From Deltaproteobacteria bacterium (GTDB lineage Bacteria > Myxococcota_A > JAADFL01), in contig JAADFL010000087.1 in assembly GCA_013152945.1 (NCBI GenBank), positions 1 to 64,000 of the forward strand: DNA of 64,000 bases, in the 5' to 3' direction. The stretch's first letter is position 1; every line of letters starts with the position of its first letter. The notes under the pieces are model-generated. The model saw only the letters and a program-made list of their open reading frames with translations, was not told the DNA's origin and made no database searches. Positions 1,585-3,304 of the stretch are shown piece after piece. The translations under genes and the position numbers were made by a program.

Positions 1585-1662
1585 GCTGCCGTAGCTCAGC
1601 TGGTTTAGAGCGCCTGACTGTGGATCAGGAGGCCGAGGGTTCGAATCCCCCCGGCAGTACCA
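1585..1662 (+). tRNA. tRNA-His (GTG anticodon), A73 and no encoded G-1
   Basis: The cloverleaf is complete: acceptor stem GCTGCCG/CGGCAGT, D-arm GCTC/GAGC, anticodon stem CCTGA/TCAGG with loop CTGTGGA, T-loop TTCGAAT and encoded CCA. The anticodon is GTG, reading His codons. The discriminator base is A73 (position 1659) and the base before G1 is T. Most bacterial tRNA-His genes carry G-1 paired with C73. The 1:72 pair is G:U and one T-stem pair is A:C. The hisS gene begins 80 bases downstream on the same strand and may be co-transcribed. Confidence 0.95.
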
Positions 1663-1741
1663 TTCTTTCCTTGTATCCGGTATTCTCTCATTGAAAAAAG
1701 AGGTATCCGGATCTAATTACGGGATTCAACCGGAGAAAGAC

Positions 1742-3304
1742 ATGGGTAACGATAGAAAAAGTAAAAGAAAGGGCACAAAGATAAAACACCCGGGATTGGT
1801 GCAACCAAGACTTGTAAGAGGTTTTCGGGATTTGTTCGAGACATCCCTGGAACAGCGTAACAGGATGATCCGAAGAATACAGGAAGTTTACGAATTGTAC
1901 GGATTTACGCCGCTCGAAACACCTGCCCTTGAGCCTGTGGATGTTCTTGGTAAATTTTTACCTGATACCGACACTCCCCAAGAAGGCATATATGCCCTCA
2001 AAGATCCGGACGACGACTCGTGGATTGCCATGCGCTATGACCTGACTGCACCCCTTGCAAGAGTATTTTCCATGAATCGTCAGGTGCTTGGCACACCGTA
2101 CCGGCGTTACCAAATCGGACCGGTTTATAGATACGAAAAAAGGCTCAAGCCAGGCAGGTTAAGGGAGTTCTACCAAGTCGACTTCGACACCGTGGGTGCA
2201 GGTACAATGGCTGCCGACGCCGAGGCGTGCAGTATTCTGGCAGATGCGCTTGAGGCACTGGGTATCTCCAGGGGCGATTACAGGATACGTATCAACAACC
2301 GTAAGCTGTTACAGGGCCTCCTCGAGTCACTGGGCCTTCCCGAGACCGGCGGTAAGACCATCATGGTCAACCAAAAGCCGGTTGAGCAGTCCCTGGTTGT
2401 CATGCGTGCAATGGACAAGCTGGACCAACTCGGCATAGACGGAGTTGTAGAGCTGCTGGGCAAAGGCAGGATGGACCAGTCCGGCGACTATACAGAGGGC
2501 GCCGGGCTGGACCCAGTAACCATCAACCGGTTGGTTGGTTTCCTGGAGTTGGGGCGCGATAGCGATGGCCCCAGGTGCAAGATGCTGACTTCGCTCCAGG
2601 AGATGCTGGGCCAAAGCCCCATGGCGGCCGAGGGGATAGAGGAAATCAGGGAGATCGACCGTATCCTGACGGCTACAGGTTTCGGGCATGACCGGGTCGT
2701 GTTGGATCCCACGGTTGTTCGAGGTATGTCGTATTACACCGGACCTGTATACGAGGCAGAACTGACCTTTGACATCCAGGATAAGAAGACTGGCAAACCG
2801 AGACGTTTCGGCTCGGTCGGCGGCGGCGGAAGGTACGACGGGTTGGTAGAGCGTTTCCTTGGGGAGAGGATACCCGCCACCGGAGCATCGGTGGGCGTGG
2901 ACAGACTGATGGCGGCCCTTGAGTACAGCGGGGCCGGAGCACGGGAAACAACGCCTGGTCCGGTGGTCGTAACCGTTATGGAGCCTTCCAGGCTTCCCGA
3001 TTATGCGCTCATGGCCTCACAGCTACGCTCCGCAGGAATAAGGGCGGAGGTGTATCCATCCAAGGGCGGGATCAAGAAGCAGATGAAGTATGCAGACCGC
3101 CGCAGGGCACCTGTTGCGGTCATTGCAGGCAGTGACGAATTCTCCAGGGATGAGGTGACTCTCAAGGACCTTAAAATGGGCAGGGAACTAAGTTCCAAAA
3201 TCCAGGACCGCGAGGAGTGGCGCAAAGGGCAGCCCGCACAAGTAACCGTGGCCAGGGAGAAACTCGTTCAGCGTGTAAGGGAAATGCTGCAGGCATGGGG
3301 TTGA
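1742..3304 (+). CDS. hisS: Histidyl-tRNA synthetase, alphaproteobacterial-like type
   Basis: This 520-residue class II synthetase charges tRNA-His. Visible signatures are RYDLTAPLAR (about 98-107), the motif 2 stretch from GPVYRYEK to REFYQVDFDTVG (about 126-152), LNNRK-like INNRK, RGMSYYTGPVYEAEL, and GSVGGGGRYDGL before the motif 3 segment GVDRLMAAL; an anticodon-binding domain closes the chain. Canonical bacterial HisRS has RPQxGRxRQFHQ and RGLDYYTGxVFE instead. The LGKFLPD, DTVGA...AADAE and YYTGPVYEAEL features match, as I recall them, the divergent HisRS of most Alphaproteobacteria. The basic N-terminal extension is unusual. ATG 1742 is preceded by GGAG at good spacing; an in-frame TTG at 1691 is less likely. 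Confidence 0.93.
   Translation: MGNDRKSKRKGTKIKHPGLVQPRLVRGFRDLFETSLEQRNRMIRRIQEVYELYGFTPLETPALEPVDVLGKFLPDTDTPQEGIYALKDPDDDSWIAMRYDLTAPLARVFSMNRQVLGTPYRRYQIGPVYRYEKRLKPGRLREFYQVDFDTVGAGTMAADAEACSILADALEALGISRGDYRIRINNRKLLQGLLESLGLPETGGKTIMVNQKPVEQSLVVMRAMDKLDQLGIDGVVELLGKGRMDQSGDYTEGAGLDPVTINRLVGFLELGRDSDGPRCKMLTSLQEMLGQSPMAAEGIEEIREIDRILTATGFGHDRVVLDPTVVRGMSYYTGPVYEAELTFDIQDKKTGKPRRFGSVGGGGRYDGLVERFLGERIPATGASVGVDRLMAALEYSGAGARETTPGPVVVTVMEPSRLPDYALMASQLRSAGIRAEVYPSKGGIKKQMKYADRRRAPVAVIAGSDEFSRDEVTLKDLKMGRELSSKIQDREEWRKGQPAQVTVAREKLVQRVREMLQAWG

Follow-up and report, generated by a model that had tools for sequence, protein, structure and literature searches.

A linked A73-type tRNA-His/histidyl-tRNA synthetase pair in a deltaproteobacterial genome, and evidence from its relatives for transfer of such pairs as a unit

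The rules by which a synthetase identifies its tRNA are hard to change, since the tRNA and the enzyme must change together. A 64,000-nt stretch of DNA from a deltaproteobacterial genome (hereafter, the window) carries a tRNA-His gene that departs from the G-1:C73 form, immediately followed by hisS, the gene for histidyl-tRNA synthetase (HisRS). The locus thus raises the question of which identity rule its histidine pair follows, and of whether tRNA and enzyme changed in place or arrived together.

The histidine pair of the window

ARAGORN detected a single tRNA gene in the window, that for tRNA-His(GTG) (Table 1). Its G1 (1585) stands opposite U72 (1658), the nucleotide at position -1 is T (1584), and A73 (1659) is followed by an encoded CCA (1660-1662). 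The tRNA was 89% identical to one linked tRNA-His of Planctomycetota, as against 62-71% to the C73 tRNA-His of its own phylum. The hisS gene is read in the same direction, 79 nt further on, and no terminator-like site was found on the + strand of the spacer. The best start for hisS was the ATG at 1742, preceded by GGAG at 1732-1735. The encoded HisRS scored 358 bits against TIGR00442 (cut-off 287) and contains both the catalytic and the anticodon-binding domains. In other bacterial HisRSs, a Gln of the motif 2 loop contacts the G-1:C73 pair (PMC3937112). Alignments showed the window loop, RYEKRLKPGRLREF, to be without the Gln of the G-1:C73-reading enzymes and to exceed most A73-type loops by one residue.

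Table 1. Features of the tRNA-His/hisS locus (window coordinates)
Feature	Position	Strand	Basis
tRNA-His(GTG), CCA encoded	1585..1662	+	ARAGORN and sequence reading
U72 and A73, putative identity nucleotides	1658..1659	+	sequence; C. crescentus parallel
Spacer between tRNA-His and hisS, 79 nt	1663..1741	+	sequence, terminator scan
hisS, A73-type histidyl-tRNA synthetase, 520 aa	1742..3304	+	TIGR00442, domains, tree
Motif 2 loop of HisRS, RYEKRLKPGRLR	2129..2164	+	alignments; loop role from PMC3937112

The window genome is a metagenome-assembled genome (MAG) of 4.84 Mb, 94% complete and 0.5% contaminated. It contains 46 tRNAs (RF00005), each typed by ARAGORN, of which one is a tRNA-His; no canonical tRNA-His was found among the 46 of this 94%-complete MAG. 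One HisRS exceeded the TIGR00442 cut-off, the remaining matches being weak, and a second HisRS was not found in the same 94%-complete assembly. The tRNA-His and hisS of the window would be the cell's only histidine-charging pair. A first-pass annotation, made from the window sequence alone, had described a tRNA-His with A73 and no G-1 adjoining hisS, and had named a second hisS or a second, canonical tRNA-His elsewhere in the genome as evidence that would tell against its reading. The unusual tRNA and the adjacency are both borne out, and the genome-wide survey returned one tRNA-His gene, the A73 one, and one hisS.

Other features surround the pair. A homologue of LarA-like nickel-dependent racemases (Lar_N domain) at 16-1545 stops 39 nt before the tRNA-His gene; none of its matches reaches the cut-off of a named subfamily. 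A gene next to the pair weakly matches the model for the myxobacterial motility protein SglT, below the cut-off, which would accord with an affiliation to Myxococcota. A candidate promoter, TTGACA-N17-TACGAA at 1542-1570, was too weak to claim, the promoter and terminator scan being uninformative.

Distribution and identity elements of A73-type pairs

HisRS and tRNA-pattern surveys were performed on 379 genomes of the window's phylum, and 392 Planctomycetota were sampled as well. The tRNA pattern demands an encoded U72-A73-CCA, so that its counts are minimum values; the HisRS survey adds to them. A73-type HisRSs were found in nine of the 379 genomes: that of the window, G006, G144, G255 and G120 (family f7), G035 and G210 (f10), G291 (f16) and G009 (f9). 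Pattern matches in G365 and G312 were discarded, as ARAGORN did not recognize them as tRNAs. The sampled Planctomycetota yielded the same enzyme type in 16 of 392 genomes. The best 80 loci in named genomes comprised ∼73 from Alphaproteobacteria, five from Planctomycetota and two from unclassified bacteria.

Within the phylum, tRNA-His was linked to hisS at eight of the nine A73-type loci and at none of 26 loci of other types (Fisher test, 4e-7, not corrected for kinship). In the window, G291, G035, G210 and G120, the tRNA-His gene immediately precedes hisS and is read in the same direction, while in G006, G144 and G255 (the f7 trio) it lies downstream of hisS and convergent to it; in G009, a tRNA of this type occurs apart from hisS. 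The upstream, same-strand arrangement recurs in Planctomycetota, at four of the 16 loci surveyed, and at two further loci, L176 and L201. Linked tRNA-His genes mostly lie 25-140 nt from the hisS start codon. The recurrence of the same tRNA beside the same HisRS type in other genomes argues that the U72/A73 pattern is not due to chance. No hisS-linked tRNA-His was seen in the ∼73 alphaproteobacterial loci within up to 6 kb (some contigs were shorter), nor any hisS within 1.5 kb of tRNA-His among the alphaproteobacterial tRNA-His loci read. The close HisRS matches listed for plasmids were all alphaproteobacterial, and in the two annotated ones that were checked hisS lay beside hisZ, not beside a tRNA gene; no close HisRS was found in the phages searched. 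In G291, whose genome has 7% contamination, the contig with the A73 pair also carries, a few kb away, a HisRS/HisZ-like frame (L133, 880-3135) that shares 26% identity with the HisRS of the window.

The identity of Caulobacter crescentus tRNA-His resides in A73, U72 and the anticodon (PMC9976931). The histidine pairs of Caulobacter and Escherichia coli do not cross-react, the Caulobacter member being orthogonal to the E. coli pair (PMC3875453). Among the 41 tRNA-His genes read from the A73-type HisRS clade, 40 have A73, one (in G210) has U73 and none has C73. U72 is present in 40 of the 41, a count made after correcting the first base of three tRNAs that ARAGORN had started one earlier; the exception, L201, has C1:G72. 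In relatives with other HisRS types, G-1, G1:C72 and C73 were found in all 16 tRNA-His genes read (for L091, ARAGORN had taken G-1 as the first base). By analogy with the Caulobacter enzyme, the window HisRS should read A73 and U72.

Several individual genes deserve mention. The U73-containing tRNA-His of G210 (L328, 1099-1173) is hisS-linked and carries G at -1; it may be a discriminator variant or a sequence error. In L201 (3197-3271, Planctomycetaceae), the tRNA-His linked to an A73-type hisS retains A73 with C1:G72 in place of G1:U72. T occupies position -1 in 30 of the 41 A73-type tRNA-His genes (33 after correction of the three called one base early), and is commoner there than in other A73 tRNAs (23 of 53; p 0.006). 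U-1 could pair with A73, thus replacing G-1:C73, or could reflect a preference of RNase P. The motif 2 signature PGPGR was rejected as a marker for the A73 type because G057 (L042, L089) breaks the pattern: its HisRS loop, EKPGPGR, is typical of alphaproteobacterial A73 enzymes, yet its tRNA-His has G-1 and C73. The motif 2 loop alone is therefore no sure predictor of the rule.

HisRS phylogeny and exchange of pairs in relatives

In a tree of 61 HisRS sequences, the A73-type enzymes, including that of the window, formed one clade against the other HisRS types (support 99/94). Nested in it was a clade of Alphaproteobacteria plus the f7 trio (support 100/99) that excluded the window HisRS. The latter forms a deep branch that lies outside the alphaproteobacterial clade and is not firmly attached to any other group in this tree. 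AU tests rejected a single clade of all nine phylum members (p 2e-40) and a grouping of the window with the f7 trio (p 1e-10); neither a clade of the window with G291, G035 and G210 (p 0.30) nor the window as sister of Alphaproteobacteria (p 0.22) was rejected. The first-pass annotation had called this HisRS alphaproteobacterial-like, and held that a grouping with the standard enzymes of the phylum would count against this. The enzyme groups apart from those, and the description fits its type; it does not fit its origin, since the alphaproteobacterial subclade excludes the window enzyme.

Three contrasts between members of one genus, as judged by assigned genus codes, were available (G006 versus G350, G144 versus G041, and G035 versus G180). 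In each, one genome has an A73-type pair and the other a different HisRS type with a C73 tRNA, so that both genes differ. The tRNA-His genes of the contrasted congeners are 68-70% identical, while those of the f7 trio are 94.6% identical to the tRNA-His of a Hyphomicrobium whose HisRS (L236) is sister to theirs. This difference indicates that the f7 trio acquired its tRNA along with the enzyme, and not by a few changes to a resident tRNA. To judge from these relationships, the HisRS and tRNA-His of the trio evidently derive from a Hyphomicrobium-like donor.

The edges of the transferred segments could also be inspected. Between G255 and either G006 or G144, nucleotide similarity is confined to hisS and the tRNA gene; between G006 and G144 it extends ∼50-85 bp past the cassette on each side, beyond which the flanks are unrelated. 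The G255 cassette starts right after a histone-deacetylase-like gene, and in G041 the same gene precedes the canonical tRNA-His; gene order in the two genomes is the same upstream of the cassette site and different downstream. The cassette of G255 sits where G041 carries its canonical tRNA-His, which suggests that recombination took place at this locus. The first-pass suggestion that linkage would let both genes move together is thus upheld in the relatives by the congener contrasts, the f7 trio and the cassette edges, and linked co-transfer, in which the resident pair was displaced, is well supported there. In G144 (L158, 2552-3651), two copies of a ∼98-bp segment, which comprises the 3' end of tRNA-His and its flank, enclose an unrelated 0.8-kb insert between hisS and the intact tRNA-His. 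This repeat resembles the footprint of an element that used the tRNA 3' end.

Proposed explanation, alternatives and known systems

To the extent that sequence comparison can establish them, the tRNA form, the HisRS clade, the linkage, the paired replacement and, in relatives, the co-transfer are in evidence. The account that we consider likely as a whole is that the window holds a sole, linked pair that reads A73 and U72, that its clade consists of A73-type pairs, many of which have tRNA-His and hisS side by side, and that in relatives such pairs were transferred as a unit and displaced the resident ones. The window HisRS would read A73, U72 and the anticodon rather than G-1:C73, and tRNA-His and hisS are perhaps carried by one transcript. 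In relatives, the linked cassette has moved as a unit and ousted the G-1:C73 tRNA together with its HisRS, in one of them at the tRNA-His locus itself. Such a pair would be self-sufficient, the incoming enzyme meeting its own tRNA; because it brings its own substrate, it could work on arrival, and the old pair would become dispensable and be lost.

Three explanations that would remove or alter the exchange were weighed. The identity could be canonical after all if a Thg1-type enzyme added G-1 post-transcriptionally. Thg1-like proteins do occur in some bacteria (PMC3701042), but Thg1 (PF04446) was not found in the window genome (G000) or in eight relatives, while the control, Methanosarcina acetivorans, was matched, which renders this idea extremely improbable. 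An assembly or binning artefact, with the contig or the genes coming from another organism, has to be considered given that the phylum members compared are, without exception, draft genomes or MAGs. The tetranucleotide make-up of the window, however, correlates at 0.98 with the pooled contigs of its own genome (controls: 0.76-0.86 for shorter contigs of that genome and 0.01-0.58 for contigs of relatives), so that the 109,730-bp contig does not look foreign; nor did the genome yield any further hisS or tRNA-His, genes on the G255 contig follow the same order as in G041 as far as the tRNA, and the same substitution is seen in several genera. We regard an artefact as very unlikely. Adaptation in place, in which an A73-type HisRS arrived by itself and the resident tRNA-His subsequently turned to A73 and lost G-1, is a model that Ardell and Andersson reportedly published in 2006 for Alphaproteobacteria. 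Against it stand the linkage of the two genes, the resemblance of the whole f7 tRNA to that of the HisRS donor instead of to those of congeners, and the window tRNA, which resembles A73 tRNAs from other phyla more closely than the C73 tRNAs of its phylum; adaptation in place seems improbable here.

Transfer of the linked pair into the window lineage itself is something we infer, as the compared set holds relatives of the window genome at the phylum level only, none of them close, and its HisRS has no firm position in the tree. The pair could instead be an old vertical inheritance from an early ancestor with a linked A73-type pair, most of the phylum having later taken up other HisRS types. The deep branch of the window HisRS, the AU test that retained its clade with G291, G035 and G210, and a cassette G+C (0.55) close to the value for the first 16 kb (0.52-0.53) agree with this; the rarity and patchiness of the A73 type in the phylum, the congeners that differ in both genes and the rejection of the nine members as one clade do not, and vertical descent strikes us as possible though less likely than not. 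A broader version of the transfer account is that A73/U72 pairs are a linked, self-sufficient cassette that repeatedly ousted resident pairs across phyla, and that Alphaproteobacteria, too, first obtained their system as a complete pair from elsewhere, whose genes later came apart, and not by transfer of a lone HisRS followed by tRNA adaptation. This we put forward tentatively, at somewhat less than an even chance.

The A73 rule, first described in Alphaproteobacteria, thus occurs in two further phyla, often as an adjacent pair, and the findings suggest that bacteria can exchange such a basic translational rule as a unit. Congeners in which the complete pair has been exchanged amount to a natural replacement experiment on the overturning of an essential identity rule, and the same contrasts are a test of co-transfer against adaptation in place. 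The genomes also provide natural HisRS/tRNA pairs of a type that, in its Caulobacter representative, is orthogonal to the pair of E. coli (PMC3875453).

Compared with known systems, the window pair resembles that of Alphaproteobacteria (Caulobacter crescentus, RRCH clade) in a tRNA-His with A73 and U72 and without G-1, in a HisRS of the same A73-type clade whose motif 2 loop is without the Gln of G-1:C73 readers, and in being the sole pair in the genome. It differs in phylum, in a HisRS ∼50% identical that falls outside the alphaproteobacterial clade and has a loop one residue longer, and in the adjacency of tRNA-His and hisS, not seen in the ∼73 alphaproteobacterial loci. With the canonical HisRS and G-1:C73 tRNA-His of E. 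coli, Thermus and most relatives in the phylum it shares fold, domains and anticodon, but it lacks G-1 and C73, its motif 2 loop is different, and the similarity of its HisRS to the canonical HisRSs of relatives is weak (E ∼1e-14). The genes for PylRS and tRNA-Pyl are also linked. They, too, form a self-sufficient tRNA/synthetase pair that has spread horizontally (PMC7373986), although PylRS adds an amino acid whereas here an essential pair would be replaced by an equivalent one. The HisRSs of Trypanosoma and Acanthamoeba also charge tRNA-His without G-1 (PMC9976931), as the window enzyme would by analogy; those organisms are eukaryotic, and trypanosomatid HisRS structures match the window HisRS much more weakly in sequence.
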